From positions 1 to 25,227 of IMG/VR virus record IMGVR_UViG_3300025704_000103: a DNA stretch of 25,227 bases; one strand, 5' to 3'. The notes beneath the pieces are model-generated. The model was not told the DNA's origin and did no database searches. It saw only the letters and a program-made list of their open reading frames with translations. Made by a program: the position numbers and the translations under genes. Each line of letters opens with the position of its first letter. Position 1 is the first letter of the stretch. The DNA comes from a virus. Shown piece by piece: positions 3,695 through 14,596 of this stretch.

Positions 3695-3988
3695 ATGCCT
3701 CGTAAGAAAGAAAATACTATAAGAAAAACCACTGGCAAAGGCGGTAATTATCGCAAAACAAAAGCTGGTGCAGGTATGACTAAAAAAGGTGTTGCCGCTT
3801 ATCGTAAGAAAAATCCCGGCTCTAAACTTAAAACTGCCGTTACTGGCAAGGTTAAAAAGGGTAGTGCCGCCTCTAAACGCCGTAAATCTTATTGCGCACG
3901 TTCAGCAGGACAAATGAAACAATTTCCAAAAGCTGCAAAAGACCCAAATAGTCGATTGAGACAAGCTAGAAAAAGGTGGAAGTGCTAA
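3695..3988 (+). CDS. Very basic small protein (DUF-type, DNA-binding candidate)
   Basis: A 97-residue protein dominated by Lys, Arg, Gly and Ala. Recognisable blocks are GNYRKTKAGAGMTKKGVAAY, RRKSYCARSAGQMKQ and a C-terminal DPNSRLRQARKRWKC. I recall this architecture from marine phages and large algal viruses as a conserved protein of unknown function. The strong positive charge suggests nucleic-acid binding, for example neutralising packaged DNA. It heads a run of three or four very basic small genes lying between capsid and head-tail adaptor genes. Two cysteines (one near residue 67, one terminal) could bind metal or crosslink; that is inference. Confidence 0.8.
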   Translation: MPRKKENTIRKTTGKGGNYRKTKAGAGMTKKGVAAYRKKNPGSKLKTAVTGKVKKGSAASKRRKSYCARSAGQMKQFPKAAKDPNSRLRQARKRWKC

Positions 3989-4135
3989 ATGGCTATGAGC
4001 CGTTCACAGATGGGGCAACAAGTTACTAAACCGCCCATGAAAAGGAAGAAGAATGCCAAAAGACGCGTGCTACAAAAAGGTAAAAGCAAGGTACAAGGTG
4101 TTTCCAAGCGCATACGCAAGCGGAGCAATCGCTAA
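3989..4135 (+). CDS. Candidate 48-residue basic ORF overlapping the next gene
   Basis: It starts with the ATG directly after the TAA of the upstream gene, preceded by AGGTGGAAG at a usable spacing, and encodes MAMSRSQMGQQVTKPPMKRK followed by a highly basic tail. The last 83 bases overlap the following gene in another frame, and the ribosome site of that gene (AGGAAG, about 4044) lies inside it, which fits translational coupling. The N-terminal 20 residues look like a genuine protein start; the basic tail could simply reflect the A-rich second frame. It may be a short leader ORF rather than a functional protein. Confidence 0.4.
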   Translation: MAMSRSQMGQQVTKPPMKRKKNAKRRVLQKGKSKVQGVSKRIRKRSNR

Positions 4136-4328
4136 GTGTAGAAAAAAAGGCGCTAAAAACTGGGGAAACAGCAAGAAAAAGCCTGTTAAGAAGGCTATGG
4201 GTGGCGTTATTGAGCCATCTAATGATTTTCGCAAACGTCCAGTGCGTCGAATGGTAAAAGGCGGTGCTGTAGCAAATGGTTGTGGCAAGGTGATGTCTAA
4301 TCGCCGAAAAGTGACAAAGAAAAGCTGA
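4053..4328 (+). CDS. Basic small protein with PSAYASGAIAKCRKKGAKNW block
   Basis: A 91-residue basic protein. The first half (KDACYKKVKARYKVFPSAYA, then SGAIAKCRKKGAKNWGN) is a conserved block I recall from cyanophages and other marine phages, where its function is unknown. The second half is Arg/Lys/Gly-rich with a cysteine in ANGCGKVMSNRRK. It starts from a good AGGAAG ribosome site and its stop codon overlaps the next start by one base (TGATG). Like its neighbours it probably binds nucleic acid or another virion part; the two conserved Cys in the N-terminal block could pair or bind metal. No experimental function can be inferred. Confidence 0.8.
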   Translation: MPKDACYKKVKARYKVFPSAYASGAIAKCRKKGAKNWGNSKKKPVKKAMGGVIEPSNDFRKRPVRRMVKGGAVANGCGKVMSNRRKVTKKS

Positions 4329-4606
4329 TGGCTGTTAGAAAAACAAAAAAAGGTGCTGCTTTAAAGCGTTGGTTTAAAGAAGACTGGAAAGATGTTAAAA
4401 CAGGTAAGCCTTGTGGTCGTAAAAAAGGTGAAAAACGCGCAACTCCTTACTGTCGCCCAAGCAAACGCGTAAGTTCTAAGACACCAAAAACAAAATCAGA
4501 GATGACAGCGAGTGAAAAGCGTAGTAGAGTAGCCCAAAAGAAGCGTATTGGTCAACCTGCGGGTAAGCCTCGTAGAGTAAAGGCTCTAAAAAGGAAAAAG
4601 AAATGA
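4328..4606 (+). CDS. Basic small protein, DUF5872-like
   Basis: A 92-residue Lys/Arg-rich protein starting MAVRKTKKGAALKRWFKEDW, then the block VKTGKPCGRKKGEKR, YCRPSKRVSSKTPKT and a basic tail. As far as I recall this matches a domain of unknown function (DUF5872-type) shared by marine phages and algal viruses. The two cysteines in GKPCGR and PYCRPSKR are family features. It overlaps its upstream neighbour by one base and the adaptor gene downstream by four, so all are co-translated. A role in binding packaged DNA or an RNA is plausible but not demonstrated by the sequence. Confidence 0.8.
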   Translation: MAVRKTKKGAALKRWFKEDWKDVKTGKPCGRKKGEKRATPYCRPSKRVSSKTPKTKSEMTASEKRSRVAQKKRIGQPAGKPRRVKALKRKKK

Positions 4607-5271: not shown

Positions 5272-5590
5272 ATATGCCACTGGAAAATGGGCATATGGTA
5301 TATCTGACCGTTCTGGCTTCCGTTATCGCTTGCGAGACATGCGAAAAGAGTGGAATGGCTTGCTAGTTGGCAAGGATGAATGGGAAGCAAAGCAACCTCA
5401 ATTAGAGCCATTACGAGCTACTCCAGACCCACAAGCGTTGCGAAATCCGCGTCCTGAACAGAACGTTCCGCAACAAGACAATATACAATGGGGATGGAAT
5501 CCAGTAGGAATGACATACAATGAGGGTTTAACCCCTAATAATTTAGTTGCTACTGGTTCAGTAGGTGGAGTTACGGTGACAATATCATGA
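5258..5590 (+). CDS. Conserved small virion-type protein with VATGSVGGVTV tail
   Basis: A 110-residue protein overlapping the adaptor gene by 14 bases; ATG at 5258 or 5264 are both possible (MAM or MSK), with the GGAG at about 5252 favouring 5264. The first 45 residues (KYATGKWAYGISDRSGFRYR; EWNGLLVG) are a conserved-looking block; the middle is Pro/Gln/Asn-rich (PDPQALRNPRPEQNVPQQ). The last 14 residues (VATGSVGGVTVTIS) match the consensus of the 22-residue repeats in the gene at 6757 and the C-terminus of the gene at 21427. Probably a tail or neck component; function unknown. Confidence 0.75.
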   Translation: MAMSKYATGKWAYGISDRSGFRYRLRDMRKEWNGLLVGKDEWEAKQPQLEPLRATPDPQALRNPRPEQNVPQQDNIQWGWNPVGMTYNEGLTPNNLVATGSVGGVTVTIS

Positions 5591-6252
5591 GTTTTACATA
5601 CGCAGAAATGAAAACAGCAATTCAAGACTACACTGAGAACACAGAAACAACTTTTGTGAATAATATCAATGTATTTATTAAGAATGCAGAAGAACGTATT
5701 CTAAAAATAGCTCAATTAGAGGTTTTTAGAAAAAATAAGACAGGAAATCTAACAGCATACGCTACAGATGCAAATAACGCTCAATATCTTGCCTTGCCAA
5801 GTGATTATTTGGCTCCATTTAGTCTTTCTTACACAGCCAACAATTCAAAAGAATTTGTTATGTTTAAAGATGTAAACTTTGTTCAGTCTTTTAATCCTGA
5901 TAAATCTACAACTGGTGGGCCTCGTTATTATGCTCAATTCGACATAAATAACTTTATATTAGCTCCCAGCCCAGATCAGGCATATGAAGTAGAGTTACAT
6001 TACTTCTATAGACCTCCAAGTTTAACTTCTGTAGGTGATAACAATACTACATGGTTAAGTACAAACGCTTCTGTGGCTTTATTGTATGGAACTCTTATCG
6101 AAGCTTATACATTTATGAAGGGTGAAGGAGATTTGGTTGCAAACTATACTCAGCGGTTTACTGAAGCTATGTCTAGGGTCAAAAACTTTGGTGAATCTCA
6201 AGAAGTTACTGATGCTTATCGCACTGGATTAATTATGAGAGAAAAGACATGA
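5587..6252 (+). CDS. Phage adaptor / neck protein
   Basis: A 221-residue protein whose ATG overlaps the upstream TGA by four bases. Helical N-terminus (MKTAIQDYTENTETTFVNNI; FIKNAEERILKIAQLEVF) is followed by a beta-rich middle (LALPSDYLAPFSLSY; YYAQFDINNFILAPSP) and a helical C-terminus (SVALLYGTLIEAYTFMKGEG). This layout resembles small adaptor or connector proteins of podoviruses, including SU10-type adaptors, which sit under the portal or hold fibres. There is no signal peptide or catalytic motif. Assignment depends on recalled sequence style and position beside the gp4-like gene. Confidence 0.7.
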   Translation: MSFTYAEMKTAIQDYTENTETTFVNNINVFIKNAEERILKIAQLEVFRKNKTGNLTAYATDANNAQYLALPSDYLAPFSLSYTANNSKEFVMFKDVNFVQSFNPDKSTTGGPRYYAQFDINNFILAPSPDQAYEVELHYFYRPPSLTSVGDNNTTWLSTNASVALLYGTLIEAYTFMKGEGDLVANYTQRFTEAMSRVKNFGESQEVTDAYRTGLIMREKT

Positions 6253-6308: not shown

Positions 6309-6743
6309 ATGGCCTTTTCAGGTAACTTTATGTGTACCAGCTTTAAGAAAGAACTTCTTGAAGGTGTGCATAACTTTTTAAATAGTGGTGGAGACACCTT
6401 TAAAATAGCACTATATACAAATAGTGCTTCTTTTACTGCTGCAACTACAGCTTATACTACAACTAACGAAGTCACAGGCACCAACTATACGGCAGGTGGA
6501 AATACTTTAACTCGTGTTGATCCAGCAAGTTCAGGAACTACTGCGTTTACTGATTTTGCAGATACAACATGGGCTTCATCTACTATAACTGCTCGTGGTG
6601 CTATAATTTACAATGATACCGCAGCAGGAAATCCAGCAGTTGTGATCTTGGACTTTGGTAGTGATAAAACATCTACAAACGGTGATTTTAAAGTTGTATT
6701 CCCAGCAGCAGACGCAAGTAACGCAATTATCCGCATCGCATAA
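6309..6743 (+). CDS. Conserved tail-associated structural protein
   Basis: A 144-residue beta-rich protein (FKKELLEGVHNFLNSGGDTF, then KIALYTNSASFTAATTAYTT). The pattern of a short helix, then KIALYT, then TTNEVTGTNYTAGG, then an all-beta C-terminus is one I recall from many podovirus and siphovirus genomes as a small virion protein of unclear role, often close to fibres. No signal peptide, no cysteine except one near the N-terminus. A strong AAGGAG ribosome site and an upstream promoter-like sequence suggest high expression. It directly precedes the repeat-fibre gene by 13 bases. Confidence 0.75.
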   Translation: MAFSGNFMCTSFKKELLEGVHNFLNSGGDTFKIALYTNSASFTAATTAYTTTNEVTGTNYTAGGNTLTRVDPASSGTTAFTDFADTTWASSTITARGAIIYNDTAAGNPAVVILDFGSDKTSTNGDFKVVFPAADASNAIIRIA

Positions 6744-6756
6744 GGAGTAACATCCT

Positions 6757-9471
6757 ATGGCAGTAATAACAGGATGGGGGCGTGGCTCGTGGTCTGAAAT
6801 GGCTTGGGGTTCAGCTATTCCTGTTACTGCTTCAGGTGTTTCAGGTGCAGGTTCGGTTGGATCAGTAAGTGCTTCTGGTGCTTCAGATGTGCCATCAAAT
6901 GGATTACAAGCGAATGCTTCAGTTACATCTGTTTCTGTTATTGCAGAAGCAAATGTTTCTCCAAATGGTCTAACCTCTACAGGTCAAGTTGGTGTTGTTT
7001 CGACATCAACTGCGGTAGGTGTTGATGTAACAGGTCTAACCTCAACAGGCGGAATAGGGTCTGTTTCTGTAGCTGAGGGTGTTGGCCTCAACGTATTAGT
7101 TACTGGCGCTTCTTCTACAGGAGAAATAGGTTCTGTTTCTGTTGTTGCAAAAGCTGTTAGTAATGCTACTGGAGTTCTTGGTACAGGCTCTGTAGGTACT
7201 GTTACTGTAGTTGAGGCGACTGGTGCTAACGTATCAGTTACTGGCGTTTCCTCCGCAGGATTATCTGGATCAACAACTGTAAACGCAAATGCAGATATTA
7301 ATGCAACAGGTGTATCAGCAGTAAGCGGAATAGGTACCGTTACTGTAATTGAAGCGACTGGTGTCAACGTATTAGTTACTGGAATTTCTTCTACAGGATT
7401 ATCTGGATCAACAACCGTTATTGCAGATGCAAATATTAATGTTACAGGAGCATCTGCAACAGGTGTAATAGGTTCTGTTGCTGTAACTGAAGGTGTTTCT
7501 ATAAACGTTACTGGAGTATCTTCTTCAGGTAATATTGGAACAGTCTTTATAATTGGTAATTCCAATGTTCCAGCAAATGGATTACAGGCAAATGCTTCAG
7601 TTTCACCTGTATTAGTAAACGCAGATGCAAATATTAATGTAACAGGTGTATCTGCAACAGGTTTAATAAGTTCCGTTTCTGTTACTGAAGGTGTTGGCGT
7701 AAATGTATCCGTCACTGGCATTGGAGCTACAGGGCAAGTAGGTTCTGTTTCTGTTATTTCAAAAGCAAATATTAATGTAACAGGTGTATCTGCAACGGGT
7801 CAAGTCGGTACGGCTGGGGTACAAGAAGGTGCAAATGCGCCTGTCGTTGGTGTATCTGGAACAGGAGTGGTTAACTCTGTAACGACCTCTATGGGAACAA
7901 GTTTTTCTGTCATTGGTGTATTTGCAACAGGAACGGTTGACTCTGTTACTGTAACTGAAGGTATCTCTGTTAACGTTACTGGAGTATCTTCTTTAGGTTC
8001 TATTGGCTCAGTAAGTATTATTGCTGAAGCCAATGTCCCAACAGTTGGATTGCAAGCGAATGCTTCAGTTACATCTGTATTAGTAAATGCAGATGCAAAT
8101 GTTAACGTAACAGGAGTATCATCAACAGGCGGAATAGGTTCTGTTTCTGTTGTTGAAGGTGTTGGGGTCAACGTACCTGTTACGGGTTTGTCCACAAATG
8201 GACTGATTGGTTCTGTATTAGTAAATGCAGATGCAAATGTTAATGTAACAGGTGTATCATCAACGGGTCAAGTCGGTACGGCTGGGGTACAAGAAGGTAT
8301 TGGTGTCAACGTGCCTGTTACAGGTGTATCTGCAACAGGCGGATTAGGTTCCGTTACTGTAAAAGAAGGTGTAAATGCTTTTGTCACTGGAGTATCTGCA
8401 ACAGGCGGATTAGGTTCCGTTACTGTAAAAGAAGGTGTAAATGCTTTTGTCACTGGAGTATCTTGCACAAGTAACATTGGAATAGTTTCTATAATTGGTA
8501 ATTCTAATGTACCTTCTGTAGGGCTTTCTTCAAGTGGGCTTATTGGTTCTGTTTTAGTAGCTGCAAATTCTAATTCCTCAGTTACTGGCGTTTTAGCTAC
8601 AGGTGCAGTTAATTCTGTAACTGTAAAAGAAGGTACTTCTGCTTTTGTTACTGGAGCATCTTGCACAGGTAATATTGGAACAGTTTCTATAATTGGTAAT
8701 TCTAATGTGCCTTCTGTAGGGCTGTCTTCAAATGGAGTGGTTGGTTCCGTTTCGGTAGCTGCAAATTCTAATTCTTTAGTTACGGGATTATCTGCAACAG
8801 GTGCAGTTGACTCTGTAACTATAAATGAAGGTATCTCTGTAAACGTTACAGGATTATCTTCTTCAGGTAACATCGGAACAGTTTCTATAATTGGTAATGC
8901 CATTGTTCCTTCTACGGGATTGTCTTCAAGTGGACTTATTGGTTCTGTTTCTGTTGTTGCAAATTCTAACTCTTCAGTTACGGGCATTGCAGCCACAGGA
9001 TCACCCGGATCAACAACCGTAATTATAGAATCTGTAGTTAATGCTACTGGAGTATCTGGCACAGGCTCTTTAGGTTCTGTTGCTGTTACTGCTGGCGGAA
9101 AAATTCCTGTTACTGGCCTTGAATCAACTGCATCTGTAGGTGCGGTTGCTGTTATCGCTGAAGCAGTTGTTAATCCGACTGGAATTTCTGCTACAGGTTC
9201 TGTTGGCTCTGTAGACGTAGGTACTTTTATTACAGTAAACGCAATAGGTTCACAAGGAACAGGGCAAGTAGGTTCTGTTTCTGTAGAACTTAACGCAATT
9301 ATTAATGTTACAGGAGTATCTGCTACAGCAAATACTGCTCAAGTTTTAGTTTGGGGGGCTATTGTGCCAAATCAAAATCCAAGCTATAATCCAATTAATC
9401 CATCTTCTACCCCATCGTGGACTGACGAATCTCCGTCTCAAAGTCCCGGATGGGACGATATAGCAGCATAG
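6757..9471 (+). CDS. Giant repeat fibre/adhesin-like virion protein
   Basis: A 904-residue protein in three parts. Residues 1-22 (TGWGRGSWSEMAWGSAIP) form a Trp/Gly-rich head. Residues 23-872 are 38 tandem units of 22 residues (24 in seven of them) with the pattern V-x-V-T-G-V-S-a-T-G-x-I-G-S-V-S-V and a variable, often acidic, turn. Residues 873-904 form a Pro/Ser/Trp tail (SWTDESPSQSPGWDDIAA). Cysteines are nearly absent. Alternating small hydrophobic and Ser/Thr/Gly residues with constant length suggest a regular beta solenoid or fibril, as in tail fibres. It lies beside the fibre gene at 9481. Receptor binding or surface display is inferred; the high Ser/Thr/Asn content makes it a possible glycosylation target. 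Confidence 0.85.
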   Translation: MAVITGWGRGSWSEMAWGSAIPVTASGVSGAGSVGSVSASGASDVPSNGLQANASVTSVSVIAEANVSPNGLTSTGQVGVVSTSTAVGVDVTGLTSTGGIGSVSVAEGVGLNVLVTGASSTGEIGSVSVVAKAVSNATGVLGTGSVGTVTVVEATGANVSVTGVSSAGLSGSTTVNANADINATGVSAVSGIGTVTVIEATGVNVLVTGISSTGLSGSTTVIADANINVTGASATGVIGSVAVTEGVSINVTGVSSSGNIGTVFIIGNSNVPANGLQANASVSPVLVNADANINVTGVSATGLISSVSVTEGVGVNVSVTGIGATGQVGSVSVISKANINVTGVSATGQVGTAGVQEGANAPVVGVSGTGVVNSVTTSMGTSFSVIGVFATGTVDSVTVTEGISVNVTGVSSLGSIGSVSIIAEANVPTVGLQANASVTSVLVNADANVNVTGVSSTGGIGSVSVVEGVGVNVPVTGLSTNGLIGSVLVNADANVNVTGVSSTGQVGTAGVQEGIGVNVPVTGVSATGGLGSVTVKEGVNAFVTGVSATGGLGSVTVKEGVNAFVTGVSCTSNIGIVSIIGNSNVPSVGLSSSGLIGSVLVAANSNSSVTGVLATGAVNSVTVKEGTSAFVTGASCTGNIGTVSIIGNSNVPSVGLSSNGVVGSVSVAANSNSLVTGLSATGAVDSVTINEGISVNVTGLSSSGNIGTVSIIGNAIVPSTGLSSSGLIGSVSVVANSNSSVTGIAATGSPGSTTVIIESVVNATGVSGTGSLGSVAVTAGGKIPVTGLESTASVGAVAVIAEAVVNPTGISATGSVGSVDVGTFITVNAIGSQGTGQVGSVSVELNAIINVTGVSATANTAQVLVWGAIVPNQNPSYNPINPSSTPSWTDESPSQSPGWDDIAA
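8326..8457 (+). repeat. Perfect 66-bp tandem duplication
   Basis: 8326-8391 and 8392-8457 are identical base for base, while neighbouring units differ at many third positions. This is the youngest duplication in the array and adds exactly one 22-residue unit. Confidence 0.9.
8443..9036 (+). repeat. Higher-order 198-bp repeat (three units x three)
   Basis: Blocks 8443-8640, 8641-8838 and 8839-9036 each hold three units in the same order: a C/S-T-G-N-I-G-T-V-S-I-I-G-N unit, a V-P-S-V-G-L-S-S unit and a V-T-G-x-x-A-T-G unit. The three-unit block therefore expanded as a whole after the single unit diversified. Confidence 0.8.
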
Positions 9472-9480
9472 GAACGCAAA

Positions 9481-11187
9481 ATGGCTAGTACATATACGTT
9501 AAATAACGGTATCGAACTCATTGGCACAGGCGAACAGTCTGGTACATGGGGCGATACAACAAATACAAATTTTGAACTAATTGATACTGCACTAGACGGT
9601 CAGATTAGCTTAACATTATCATCAGCAGGCTCTTCTGGATCGCCAAACGCGCTTCCAGTTTCAGATGGCGCATCATCTAACGGTAGAAATCGTTTAATTT
9701 CTTATGTAGATGGCGGCGATCTTGGAGCAACAGCTTATGTTCAATTAACCCCAAATGACGCTGAAAAGATCATTTACATTCGAAACGCTTTATCTGGATC
9801 ACGCAGTATTATTGTCTTTCAAGGTACATATAACGCATCTAATGACTATGAAATTCCAGCGGGTACAACAGCAGTTGTTTACTTTAATGGTGGCGGCACA
9901 GGTGCCGTAGCCGCAAACGTATTTAACAATGCTTACTTTGATGGTTTAAGATTAGGTAGCGTTTCTGTTACAGCAATTCTTGATGAAGATAATATGTCGT
10001 CTAACAGTGCTACAGCTCTTTCTACACAACAGTCTATTAAGGCATATGTAGATAGTCAGGTTGGCACAGTTGATACGCTTGCTGAGATTCTTGCTAACGG
10101 CAACACTACAGCTACAGACCAAAAGATACAGTTTAGAGACAGCGCTATATACATAAACTCTAGCGCAGATGGGCAGTTAGACCTTGTTGCTGACACAGAG
10201 ATTCAAATAGCAGCTACGACTATAGATATGAATGGTAACTTAGATATATCAGGTACAGTCGATGGGGTAGATATTGCAGCTAGAGATGCGGTGTTAACCT
10301 CTACAACGACGACTGCGAATGCAGCACTACCTAAAGCTGGCGGTGCTATGACAGGCGCTATTACAACCAATTCTACTTTTGATGGTAGAGACGTAGCAAC
10401 TGACGGAACTAAACTAGATGGTATTGAGGCTTCAGCGGATGTAACAGACACAACTAATGTAACTGCTGCAGGGGCCTTGATGGACAGCGAAGTTACTAAT
10501 CTTGCTGAAGTAAAAGCATTTGATAGTACGGATTATGCTACGGCAGCACAGGGTACAACCGCAAACAATGCTCTACCTAAAGCTGGTGGGGCTATGACAG
10601 GTGCTATCACAACTAACTCAACTTTCGATGGGCGTGATGTAGCTACGGACGGTACAAAGCTAGACGGTATAGAAGCAAGCGCAGATGTAACAGACACTGC
10701 AAACGTAACTGCGGCTGGCGCATTGATGGATAGCGAACTTACCAACCTTGCGGCAGTCAAAGCGATTAACCAAAGTTTGGTTACTGGGGCTAGTCCTACG
10801 TTTGCTGGGCTGACTGTAGGAGGTAACATAGCAGTTACAGGTACAGTAGACGGACGTGATATAGCTACAAACATACCAGCTTCTTTAGGTACAGCAGGAC
10901 AAGTTCTTACAGTTAATGCAGGTGCAAGTGCTGGTGAATGGGCAGACGCTGGTGGTGGTGTATCTTTTTCAAGTGAGATTTTTACAGCCTATAGTGACAC
11001 AGGCCAACAACGTAACTCGAATACTGGTAATACAACTTATCTTGAAGTGACAGCATTTACAAATTTAGGAAATGAATGGCCTATGACACGTTATCAAGCT
11101 ACAATTACACAAACGGTACTATTCGACGATAATGGAAGAGTAAACTATCGATTAGATATGCGCCGTGGATACAGAACATTTAGTTAA
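9481..11187 (+). CDS. Tail fibre protein with internal duplication
   Basis: A 568-residue tail fibre. The N-terminus (NNGIELIGTGEQSGTWGDTT, then NTNFELIDTALDG) is a block I recall at the start of many marine phage fibres and probably attaches the fibre to the virion. A helical stretch (STQQSIKAYVDSQVGTVDTL) leads to a trimeric-fibre type shaft with the motif DGRDVATDGTKLDGIEASAD, present twice (residues 282-346 and 364-428, 82 residues apart). The C-terminal domain (about 480-568) is beta-rich and likely the host-contact part. It is nine bases after the repeat protein. No intramolecular chaperone motif is visible. Confidence 0.88.
   Translation: MASTYTLNNGIELIGTGEQSGTWGDTTNTNFELIDTALDGQISLTLSSAGSSGSPNALPVSDGASSNGRNRLISYVDGGDLGATAYVQLTPNDAEKIIYIRNALSGSRSIIVFQGTYNASNDYEIPAGTTAVVYFNGGGTGAVAANVFNNAYFDGLRLGSVSVTAILDEDNMSSNSATALSTQQSIKAYVDSQVGTVDTLAEILANGNTTATDQKIQFRDSAIYINSSADGQLDLVADTEIQIAATTIDMNGNLDISGTVDGVDIAARDAVLTSTTTTANAALPKAGGAMTGAITTNSTFDGRDVATDGTKLDGIEASADVTDTTNVTAAGALMDSEVTNLAEVKAFDSTDYATAAQGTTANNALPKAGGAMTGAITTNSTFDGRDVATDGTKLDGIEASADVTDTANVTAAGALMDSELTNLAAVKAINQSLVTGASPTFAGLTVGGNIAVTGTVDGRDIATNIPASLGTAGQVLTVNAGASAGEWADAGGGVSFSSEIFTAYSDTGQQRNSNTGNTTYLEVTAFTNLGNEWPMTRYQATITQTVLFDDNGRVNYRLDMRRGYRTFS
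10324..10764 (+). repeat. 82-residue internal duplication in the fibre shaft
   Basis: Copy 1 at 10324-10518, copy 2 at 10570-10764. Over 65 codons the proteins differ at only three residues (T/A, V/L, E/A), but by my count about 35 codons differ synonymously. Confidence 0.9.
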
Positions 11188-11200
11188 TTAGGAGAAAATA

Positions 11201-11614
11201 ATGTGGTTTTTATTTAATGAAAAAGATGATAGTTTTGCAACATGCGATTCTAAAGAAGAAAATATTGAAGCTATTATGAGACAGATTGATGGTGTATATA
11301 AAATTCATATTTCAAACTTTTCTACTACATCTCACCCAGAAACAATAGACGACACAGACTTGTCAGCACTTTTTTATGATCAAGAAGCCGAAAATGTTTT
11401 TATTCCAGCAGGAACTATAACTACAAGTACAGCAACTGGCAAAAAGCGTCTTGAAGAACTTCTTAAATCTGAGGTTATTTTACCAAAAGAAGAACAAAAT
11501 AGTTTTATTATAGATTTAGCTAAATCAGAATTACCTGAATCTGTTTATAATGAAATTATTAAAGACATTGACTCTAGTGATGCAGAAGATGTTTTAGATG
11601 CTTTAGAAGATTAG
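11201..11614 (+). CDS. Acidic hypothetical protein at head of accessory cassette
   Basis: A 137-residue acidic protein (many Asp/Glu, pattern DSSDAEDVLDALED at the end) with no signal peptide or membrane segment. Start is set by AGGAGAAAATA before the ATG. The first half has a beta-rich look (MWFLFNEKDDSFATCDSKEE; IMRQIDGVYKIHISNFSTTS), the second half is helical. It ends 4 bases before the next gene, so it belongs to the coupled five-gene cassette. I do not recognise a family. Its place directly after the fibre gene leaves a fibre-assembly or fibre-chaperone role possible, or a partner of the enzymes downstream. Confidence 0.75.
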   Translation: MWFLFNEKDDSFATCDSKEENIEAIMRQIDGVYKIHISNFSTTSHPETIDDTDLSALFYDQEAENVFIPAGTITTSTATGKKRLEELLKSEVILPKEEQNSFIIDLAKSELPESVYNEIIKDIDSSDAEDVLDALED

Positions 11615-11618
11615 TATT

Positions 11619-12143
11619 ATGCTTGTTAAAAAAATTGATCCAAACCCAAAAGTTACAACTATCCTAAAAGAAACTATTGTTAAAACAAAAAACACATGGG
11701 CAAATTTAAAACCTAAAAATTCTACTTATGAAGAATTTAAATCACAAGCATTACCAGAACAAGATGTAACAAACCCTAATACAGATTATATCAGAATTAA
11801 CTCTATACTTAATGGGTCTATCCGTAATACTACAAAACAACTAGAAACAGCGAAGAGTATATTAGGTGCAGACGAAATTACGAATAGCGTTGTTTATAAC
11901 CCTATGTCTTTTATGAAATGGCACACAAACAGCAATAACTGTGGAAAGCGTATTTACTATACTTTTAGTAATAAGCCCTCAGTATTTATGTGGAAGCATC
12001 CAAAAACAAATGAAATTATATTAGAAAAAGATAACGCAGGTTGGTCTGCTAGAGAATTTATTGTAGATCATAATTATTTATTATGGCATTCTATCTGGGC
12101 AGAGGGTTTAAGGTTTAGTTACGGCTTTAATAAAAAGCTGTAA
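11619..12143 (+). CDS. 2-oxoglutarate-oxygenase-like protein with H-x-N site
   Basis: A 174-residue protein. The C-terminal half shows the order of marks of the 2OG-Fe(II) double-stranded beta-helix fold: H102-T-N104 in FMKWHTNSNN, H157 in LLWHSIW and R165-F-S167 in LRFSYGF, the last fitting the R-x-S that binds 2-oxoglutarate. The usual metal-binding Asp/Glu of H-x-D/E is Asn here. The first 75 residues are Lys/Thr/Asn-rich and not recognisable. Either the enzyme has an unusual metal site or it is a non-catalytic fold relative. It overlaps the next gene by one base. Assignment is by motif spacing only. Confidence 0.6.
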   Translation: MLVKKIDPNPKVTTILKETIVKTKNTWANLKPKNSTYEEFKSQALPEQDVTNPNTDYIRINSILNGSIRNTTKQLETAKSILGADEITNSVVYNPMSFMKWHTNSNNCGKRIYYTFSNKPSVFMWKHPKTNEIILEKDNAGWSAREFIVDHNYLLWHSIWAEGLRFSYGFNKKL

Positions 12144-13033
12144 TGGAGATTACCAAACATGCACTTACTTTTGAGGATATGGCGACAGAGTGGATAGAGA
12201 GACGATCTTATAGTCCTTTAAAATCACAGAACTTTTCTACTTTACTTAAAATTACGAATGCCTTAACTGAACTAGCTAACCCTATAGATTTTTTAGTAGA
12301 TCACATGTATACCCCTAACTCAAAAACTTTTATAATAGGTTCTGGTTTTGGGAAGTTTAGCCATTTTAGAATTGTTAAAGCAGGATTATATATAAACAGA
12401 AATCCTAGATTTAATTTATGGAAAAAATACAAGCCTGATGAAATTACTTATAATTATTTTAAAGAAGAAAATTTACAGAAATACACACAAAAACTACCTC
12501 TTTATGTAAAGCAACATCCTTACGATGTGTTTTTTATACAAAGACGTATAGATACGTTTGCTTTTTTAGATGCCTGTAAATACGCTAATCAAACAAAAAC
12601 AAAGACTATTTTTAAGTATCATCCAACTCCAGATACAATTACAACTAATGATATGATGTATAAGATTTGTAAGAAAACTGGTTTACTTAGCGAGTATACT
12701 ATATTTTTATCTGATTATGATGCAACAAGCTTAATAAAACAAGCAGACTTTAGTTATAGTATGGACAGCGCAACAACGCTAAATGCTTTAGTTCATGGAA
12801 TACCTTGTATGACTTATGCAGACACACCACTATCAGAAGTTGTCCCAGTTTATAGAAGTCGCTTTGATTATAAAAAGCCAGTAGCAACTAGCGATGAAGA
12901 CACTTCTAAATTTTTAAACTGGTATTATAATCGTTTAGTAATTGATGTTGATAAGCCTAATTTTAAAGATAAATTAGCTACTATCTTAAATAAATATGCT
13001 AATGGTATAAAAACTCGTGAGGTATACTCTTGA
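12143..13033 (+). CDS. Glycosyltransferase-like protein (capsule KpsC/KpsS type)
   Basis: A 296-residue protein. The second half has the signature of bacterial capsule-type transferases with a GT-B-like fold: KYHPTPD with H160 followed by a block ending in QADFSYS and DSATTLNALVHGIPCMTY (about 208-225), the position where related enzymes bind the nucleotide sugar. The first half (SKTFIIGSGFGKFSHFRIVK; LPLYVKQHPYDVFFIQRRID) looks like the acceptor-side domain. No signal peptide or membrane segment, so cytoplasmic. Its ATG overlaps the previous stop. It may add a sugar to a host surface glycan or to a virion protein; the donor and acceptor cannot be read from the sequence. Confidence 0.65.
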   Translation: MEITKHALTFEDMATEWIERRSYSPLKSQNFSTLLKITNALTELANPIDFLVDHMYTPNSKTFIIGSGFGKFSHFRIVKAGLYINRNPRFNLWKKYKPDEITYNYFKEENLQKYTQKLPLYVKQHPYDVFFIQRRIDTFAFLDACKYANQTKTKTIFKYHPTPDTITTNDMMYKICKKTGLLSEYTIFLSDYDATSLIKQADFSYSMDSATTLNALVHGIPCMTYADTPLSEVVPVYRSRFDYKKPVATSDEDTSKFLNWYYNRLVIDVDKPNFKDKLATILNKYANGIKTREVYS

Positions 13034-13644
13034 TATATGAAGAACCTATTCCACATTATATTATAAAGGGTGATCCTTTAATGTATGCTAGAGGTTTAAA
13101 AACATTTACTAAAAATAAACGTAATTTAAATTACAAAAAAAACATACGCCAGAATAGCCCTATAAATGATGAAAAATTAAAAAAATATTTAGAAGGTGTT
13201 TTGTCTAATGCTTATATTTCTTTTAAGCCTTACTTGCAAAAAGCTTACCCCAAATGGGTACTTGGAGAACCTAATTTTAAAACCTATTATTCTATTAATC
13301 CAGCGTCAGATAAGCCTTTTAACCCTCGGATGTGGCACTTAGATACAGGTGAAAAAGTTCTTATAGGTCTTTGGTATGCCAAGCATCCTGACGATGATGC
13401 AGGGGGTGACTTATACATTTCTGATAGAAAAAAATATAAAAAAATACCGTATGATACTAATAATCTTGTTATAATTCCTAACTTGCCTAATGCTTGGCAT
13501 TCTGTGAGCAAAAGACAACCTTCAAAATATGATAGGTTATTTTTTAATTTTATGATGACACATAATGGAGATCATTTACATGATTACCGAAGAAACGCTG
13601 ATGGGTCTGACGAATTTAAACCCATTACAAATAACTATAAATAG
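13030..13644 (+). CDS. 2-oxoglutarate/Fe(II)-dependent oxygenase
   Basis: A 204-residue protein with the full 2OG-Fe(II) facial triad: H103-L-D105 in MWHLDTGEKVLIGLW, distal H157 in NAWHSVSKR, and R169 in YDRLFFNFM as the likely 2-oxoglutarate anchor. The fold marks GGDLYI and NNLVIIPN between the triad residues are typical of prolyl-4-hydroxylase-like enzymes, which hydroxylate proteins or small molecules. The start is TTG at 13030 giving a TTGA overlap with the upstream stop; ATG at 13081 is the alternative and keeps all active-site residues. No signal peptide. Substrate unknown; a protein or sugar handled by the neighbours is possible. Confidence 0.8.
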   Translation: MIYEEPIPHYIIKGDPLMYARGLKTFTKNKRNLNYKKNIRQNSPINDEKLKKYLEGVLSNAYISFKPYLQKAYPKWVLGEPNFKTYYSINPASDKPFNPRMWHLDTGEKVLIGLWYAKHPDDDAGGDLYISDRKKYKKIPYDTNNLVIIPNLPNAWHSVSKRQPSKYDRLFFNFMMTHNGDHLHDYRRNADGSDEFKPITNNYK

Positions 13645-14521
13645 AGCTGTTTTAGAGATTAATGGTAGTTGCAATTACACTTGTACTATGTGTCCACAAT
13701 CTCAAGGCAGAGATCATTCTTTCTTAGATAGCATGGATTTAGACACTTTTAAGCGATTATTAAAAGAACTAAATCCGTCCATTGTAAATCTTGATGGGTC
13801 AGGCGAAGCTACCATGCTTAAAACTTTGCCGTATTATATTGAAGCAGTAAAAGACTTTGGTGCTAAAGCTTATATATTTTCGAATGGTCTAAAAATGAAA
13901 GGCCAATATATGAAAGATTGTGTAAATGCAGGTTTAGATTTTTATCGTTTTTCTATTATAGGATACACACCTGATTTGTACTCTAAGTGGATGAAATCGT
14001 CTTCTTTTTATTGGGTTCTTGATAATCTTTACAACATGAGAGATTATTCTGATATGTGCTTTGTTTCGTCGTATCACTTAATATTAGATAATAATAATTT
14101 AGAATACGAAAAGCAAAAATATTTATCTTTAATTGATGATGGAAATATTGAAATATGGAAAATGCACAATTGGGCTGGCTCTTATGAAAGTAGCCGCAAA
14201 GGAGAAATAAAAACTTGTGGTAGGCCATTCAGTCCAGATGCGGTAGTAAGGGCAAATGGGGCAGTTCATCCATGCTGTCAGGTCTTAGGAAAGGATGTAG
14301 AAGCAACTCTAGGCAATATTCACGACAATACCTTTGAGGAAATATGGAATGGCTCTTTGTATGAAGATTTAAGAGATCGTCACAGAACTGGCAATTATCC
14401 AGATTATTGCAAAAGTTGTGATTTTTTAATTTCTGACCCAGAGGTTCTTGTGTATAGTAATTATGCTAAAGATGGCAATATGAATGGTGCAGATTTTAAT
14501 TTAAAAGAATACACAGGATAA
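13580..14521 (+). CDS. Radical SAM protein with SPASM-type C-terminus
   Basis: A 313-residue enzyme. C31-x3-C35-x2-C38 (GSCNYTCTMCPQ) binds the 4Fe-4S cluster that cleaves S-adenosylmethionine; DGSGEATM is a GGE-like SAM motif. C-terminal cysteines C213, C232, C233, C277 and C280 (TCGRPF, HPCCQV, YCKSCDF) with GNIHDNTFEEIWNG match a SPASM domain carrying auxiliary clusters, usual in enzymes that modify peptides or sugars. I prefer the ATG at 13580, with GGAG 10 bases before it, over 13565. It overlaps the upstream gene by 65 bases. Peptide modification, sugar or alcohol oxidation are all possible. Confidence 0.9.
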   Translation: MITEETLMGLTNLNPLQITINRAVLEINGSCNYTCTMCPQSQGRDHSFLDSMDLDTFKRLLKELNPSIVNLDGSGEATMLKTLPYYIEAVKDFGAKAYIFSNGLKMKGQYMKDCVNAGLDFYRFSIIGYTPDLYSKWMKSSSFYWVLDNLYNMRDYSDMCFVSSYHLILDNNNLEYEKQKYLSLIDDGNIEIWKMHNWAGSYESSRKGEIKTCGRPFSPDAVVRANGAVHPCCQVLGKDVEATLGNIHDNTFEEIWNGSLYEDLRDRHRTGNYPDYCKSCDFLISDPEVLVYSNYAKDGNMNGADFNLKEYTG

Positions 14522-14539
14522 TTTTAACACTTAGAGCTA

Positions 14540-14596
14540 ATGGTTGCTAAAGATTATTGGTGCGGCTATTATAGTAGTAAAAAGGCAAATGAGTAA
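14540..14596 (+). CDS. Candidate 18-residue micro-ORF
   Basis: ATG to TAA encoding MVAKDYWCGYYSSKKANE; its TAA overlaps the ATG of the next gene (TAATG). The dense aromatic DYWCGYY core is unusual for a random short frame, but only a weak GAG-type ribosome site is present. It fills nearly all of the only gap in this region. Could be coupled to the downstream gene or be chance. Confidence 0.3.
   Translation: MVAKDYWCGYYSSKKANE

Follow-up and report, generated by a model that had tools for sequence, protein, structure and literature searches.

What could a phage gene do whose product is almost entirely one short repeat, and how fixed is the length of such a product? We addressed this question for a 904-aa ORF (6757-9471, + strand) of a marine phage, lying within a 25,227-base virus record, hereafter the window, i.e., the whole stretch of DNA analysed. 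When segmented by means of a family profile and cut deterministically, the protein divides into a 26-aa head, 38 units and a 30-aa tail with no residue left over (Table 1). The uninterrupted 38-unit array described by the initial annotation, with its Trp/Gly head, its Pro/Trp tail and sizes summing to 904, is thereby borne out; only the phase is slightly shifted, the array having first been placed at 6823-9372 rather than 6835-9378. The size of 32 units is 22 aa while six units (4, 6, 8, 13, 20 and 22) measure 24 aa. Every departure in unit length is an addition of 2 aa, always at unit positions 15-17, and the earlier remark that all insertions are of 6 bp holds as well. Unit 38 is a hybrid running into the tail. 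Trp residues occur only in the head (positions 7, 12 and 17) and in the tail region (866, 888 and 899). Among family members the tails mostly measure 8, 19, 30, 41 or 52 residues. The tail varies in copy number as well, in steps of 11 aa, which equals half a unit (L014, L032, L113, L115 and L171), and the tails of L018 and L032 are two such steps apart despite 99% upstream identity.

Table 1. Coordinates of the repeat gene, its internal blocks and its neighbours in the window.
Feature	Position	Strand	Basis or remark
SU10-type tail adaptor	5587..6252	+	PF24175, E 1.9e-23
phrog_644 gene, 144 aa, upstream partner	6309..6743	+	phrog_644, E 1.5e-23; repeat gene next in most loci
Trp/Gly head MAVITGWGRGSWSEMAWGSAIPVTAS, 26 aa, N-terminal	6757..6834	+	GWGRGTWGxxxWGE-like head kept across most family members
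38-unit array; family consensus GVSATGSVGSVTVTADANVSVT	6835..9378	+	Family-profile segmentation and deterministic cutting
Units 23 and 24, 98% identical DNA	8323..8454	+	72-bp exact repeat 8326/8392; dN 0, dS 0.05
Three-unit (198-bp) blocks: units 25-27, 28-30, 31-32	8455..8982	+	TRF period 198; unit identities
Pro/Trp tail PSYNPINPSSTPSWTDESPSQSPGWDDIAA, C-terminal, 8 + 2 x 11 aa	9379..9468	+	Family tail lengths mostly 8 + 11n
Tail-fibre gene MASTYTLNNGIELIGTGEQSGTWGDTTN..., downstream	9481..11187	+	phrog_892 tail fibre, E 2.4e-37
Island: distal tail fibre, capsule-synthesis-like, 2OG-oxygenase-like and radical SAM/SPASM genes	10110..14593	+	Absent from close relatives

The units score on average 47.5 bits against the family profile, whose consensus was derived over 1465 units, whereas the best single 22-mer per shuffle averages 17.9 bits over 200 shuffles with a maximum of 35.5. 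Since the array moreover shows a self-identity of 0.35 at lag 22 and again at lag 66, the repeat pattern is far beyond chance. Of the 848 residues of the array, 36 are charged, and 79% of the protein consists of six amino acids (V, G, S, T, A and N). This composition, together with pLDDT values below 50 in the head and tail, would suit a linker or tether within the tail fibre complex, low in complexity and for the most part disordered. Yet hydrophobic and charged residues are strictly placed: unit positions 2, 8, 11, 13, 19 and 21 are occupied at 67-92% by V, I, L, M or F and are almost never charged. The 22-aa length is also maintained over 1465 family units, and the indels of the window protein fall in one turn only. 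A disordered tether consequently seems very improbable.

AF2 models were generated for L010, a relative with 9 units (57 sequences; mean pLDDT 59.8, about 65-76 across much of the array and below 50 at both ends), and for units 23-37 of the window protein (mean 66.4; 73-85 over the first 100 residues, then down to about 50). The models are all beta with a strand rhythm of 22 aa; in units 23-37, strands cover unit positions 8-15 and 19-22, positions 2-3 form a further, short strand, and the insertions of the window protein are confined to a predicted turn. VIA-align placed beta-helical proteins closest, namely MpAFP (3p4g; Z 19.9, rmsd 3.3, 273 aligned), EtpA (8vbb; Z 19.9, rmsd 3.3, 308 aligned) and HMW1 (2odl; Z about 19-20), while a Foldseek search of the models against the PDB returned nothing below E 0.1. 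These proteins share similar beta-helical coils with the modelled units, a likeness of fold class for which no sequence relation was found. AF2 is reported to over-predict solenoids for repeats, producing confident but unrealistic solenoids from perfect repeats (PMC11795689), so the fold of the array is given here as a prediction. The hydrophobic positions and the turn-only indels do not depend on AF2, and they favour, without proving, a beta-solenoid whose coils would be the 22-aa units. Of the regular beta-solenoid or fibril originally proposed, the solenoid is the part retained, on models of moderate confidence and a fitting sequence pattern weighed against the bias of the method; the fibril received no support, and the predictions gave solenoid coils rather than a disordered chain.

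Fibres of phages and other viruses are trimers as a rule. The host-contact role proposed below could be filled by an obligate trimer (a triple beta-spiral or a triple-stranded beta-helix) rather than by a single-chain solenoid, and the monomer models, moderate in confidence and decaying along the chain, would agree with this. However, the 22-aa period, the three strands per coil and the wholly hydrophobic inward positions fit a single chain, and the best structural matches are monomeric beta-helices, which makes a trimeric shaft rather unlikely. Curli CsgA (8c50) is a beta-solenoid of about the same repeat length (Z 16.1 and 17.9, rmsd near 9). The window protein holds zero matches to the curli Q-x-G-x-x-N (Gln/Asn) motif and zero to GG.G.D, the pattern of RTX or MpAFP-type GGxGxD repeats. 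As for the two-partner-secretion adhesins (FHA, EtpA and HMW1), the resemblance is structural and concerns the repeat part only, the N-terminal TPS domain having no Pfam match in the window protein. Matches to the hexapeptide helices of GlmU and LpxD, with an rmsd near 11, were not taken as kin.

Unit number, which would set the length of the solenoid favoured here, differs between close relatives. The window and L003 share 98.6% upstream DNA identity over 2 kb, yet carry 38 and 27 units, respectively. L005, whose upstream DNA is 96.7% identical to that of the window, has 21 units, while L007, L010, L014, L015 and others have 9 (about 93-96% identity). All of these arrays are in frame beside upstream DNA that is about 93-99% identical. 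The length variation without frameshift anticipated by the initial annotation, which had called for a copy-number comparison, was therefore recovered: among the metagenome assemblies compared, relatives do not share one count. In a tree built from 1.85 kb of upstream DNA, the window and L003, then L005, form nested clades (100/100 support) with 9-unit phages around them, and a more distant group has 9 units too. As the long arrays are nested among 9-unit phages, the ancestor likely had 9 units, and the array of the window seems to have expanded recently. Units 1-4 and 33-38 are conserved in position between the window and L003, and window units 33-38 correspond to units 4-9 of L007. These comparisons suggest that the shaft changes length fast, with whole units gained and lost among near-identical phages. 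L106 and L107 (441 and 496 aa) were dropped as length variants, L106 being without the usual start and probably an interrupted reading frame.

The array itself bears traces of such changes. TRF detected periods of 66, 138 and 198 bp, and the interior is rearranged by duplications of one unit (98% identical), two units and three units. As judged from their sequence, units 23 and 24 are the most recent duplication visible in the array. Between the three-unit blocks, identity is 92% for units 25 and 28 and 82% for units 26 and 29. The dN/dS ratio between paralogous units is mostly 0.1-0.5, dN being well under dS. The duplicated blocks and the length differences in unit multiples point to recombination between units as the mechanism by which array length evolves. 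The proposal that length is set in this way thus stands on duplications that can be seen in the array, the recombination itself being deduced from the blocks and the unit-multiple differences.

The underlying sequences are all metagenome assemblies, and the contig end of L002 shows a junction skipping three units inside a shared stretch, as would be expected if the copy-number differences were artefacts of short-read assembly. Still, exact repeats in the array do not exceed 72 bp, the second longest being 38 bp. Short reads can therefore resolve most of the array, and its interior units differ from each other at many sites. Moreover, the 9-unit count is agreed by several independent contigs, L003 and L004 agree although they come from different samples, and L005 and L055, from different metagenomes, show 99.5% agreement through most of the array. 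An assembly origin of the differences is hence extremely unlikely. L002 was not accepted as proof that three units had been lost, since its switch lies at the very end of the contig, within the final bases.

By position the repeat gene belongs to a tail module, with the adaptor upstream and the tail fibre downstream (Table 1), an arrangement conserved in relatives; of the 85 relatives that could be checked, 84 have a tail fibre of the same type, with a shared N-terminal motif, 3' of the repeat gene. The capsid gene and the repeat gene also lie in a single morphogenesis run, and phrog_644 has no known role (against the PDB, its best single-protein match had an E of 0.23 and a profile search gave no match). 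These two points would allow a decoration of the head or whiskers, or a different surface fibre of the virion, with no part in the tail or in host recognition. Such a placement is nonetheless improbable, as the nearest neighbours are the tail adaptor and the tail fibre and as a different tail-fibre-type gene occupies the slot after phrog_644 in about 20 loci. L111 and L113 carry an extra ORF resembling an HNH-type endonuclease between phrog_644 and the repeat gene. In the window, three small and very Lys/Arg-rich ORFs, possibly DNA-binding, lie between the capsid and adaptor genes (3695-4606).

Searching viral contigs yielded 52 loci; using the upstream adaptor and phrog_644 genes as queries added more. 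Most phrog_644 loci encode a repeat-type protein next, 101 of them by strict criteria; beyond these, several loci have heads of another kind or fall short of the unit number needed for automated counting. These counts carry a bias, the repeat protein itself having served to fetch some of the loci. In each of eight larger contigs searched, matches were confined to one place, corresponding to one such gene. A single-protein search of bacterial genomes found one locus, L210, with the same gene order on a phage-like contig of an Oceanicoccus sp. MAG; its binning in this bacterial MAG is a possible hint to the host. The window protein matched no family in Pfam (best E 0.088, which misses the cut-off), PHROG or NCBIfam. 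A PDB sequence search of the array found no family, and the sole match of the profile, to a leucine-rich-repeat protein, was weak (E 0.058). The family is common in aquatic phage contigs and nameless in every library searched.

Some relatives carry additional domains. A Laminin_G_3 lectin lies within the array of L124 (E 3e-18) and L162 (E 7e-18), and the same Laminin-G-type domain is visible by sequence inside the array of L105; the Pfam search found none in the window protein. The near-identity of this domain in three otherwise different proteins suggests its recent exchange as a module among these family members. L118 and L127 possess an N-terminal domain with weak MAM similarity.

Host-recognition (metaviromic) islands of marine phages combine a repeat-patterned tail-fibre shaft with a hypervariable island beside it, and carbohydrate-binding or lectin domains are common there (PMC3909814). 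The window resembles these adhesin shafts in having a repeat shaft in the tail-fibre region next to a variable island, and its 4.5-kb island, partly of low GC (about 30-32% at 11-14 kb), is itself similar to the metaviromic islands described (PMC3909814). In those phages, however, the repeats are part of the tail-fibre protein and vary from phage to phage, whereas in the window a single 22-aa repeat, flanked by fixed end pieces, fills nearly all of a separate gene, and its copy number varies between near-identical phages. A hypothetical protein of phage DSL-LC04 (OR003939) and gp68 of Pelagibacter phage HTVC027P share the Trp/Gly head, beta repeats, a short C-terminal motif and a position after phrog_644, but are shorter, divergent and annotated as hypothetical only. 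Literature searches did not find this repeat family described. Repetitive phage adhesin or fibre shafts are already known as a kind, while the present family and its copy-number series appear undescribed in the literature and libraries consulted.

We infer, as the somewhat more probable reading, that the protein is a virion-associated spacer or fibre of the host-recognition module, with a solenoid shaft whose length evolves via unit recombination. The phage, an aquatic member of the Caudoviricetes whose adaptor is podovirus-like (SU10-type), would bear it on the virion, probably on the tail. Fixed end pieces would be provided by the Trp/Gly head and the Pro/Trp tail, one of which may mediate attachment. 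The 22-aa units would stack as beta-solenoid coils into a shaft that grows or shrinks as recombination adds or removes one, two or three units in frame. Such a shaft would reach toward the host surface or present an adhesin to it, the most likely role being that of a length-variable spacer or fibre presenting or supporting host contact. Array length may affect reach or avidity. It is possible, if doubtful, that spacer length is an adaptive, rapidly tunable trait, recombination giving near-identical phages different reach. As the series of 9, 21, 27 and 38 units occurs in nearly constant genomic backgrounds, the relation of fibre length to adsorption can be asked directly. Variation in shaft length would add a further dimension next to the classical hypervariable receptor-binding island, and a tunable spacer length, if true, would be the physical counterpart to the sequence variation of the adjacent tail-fibre island.
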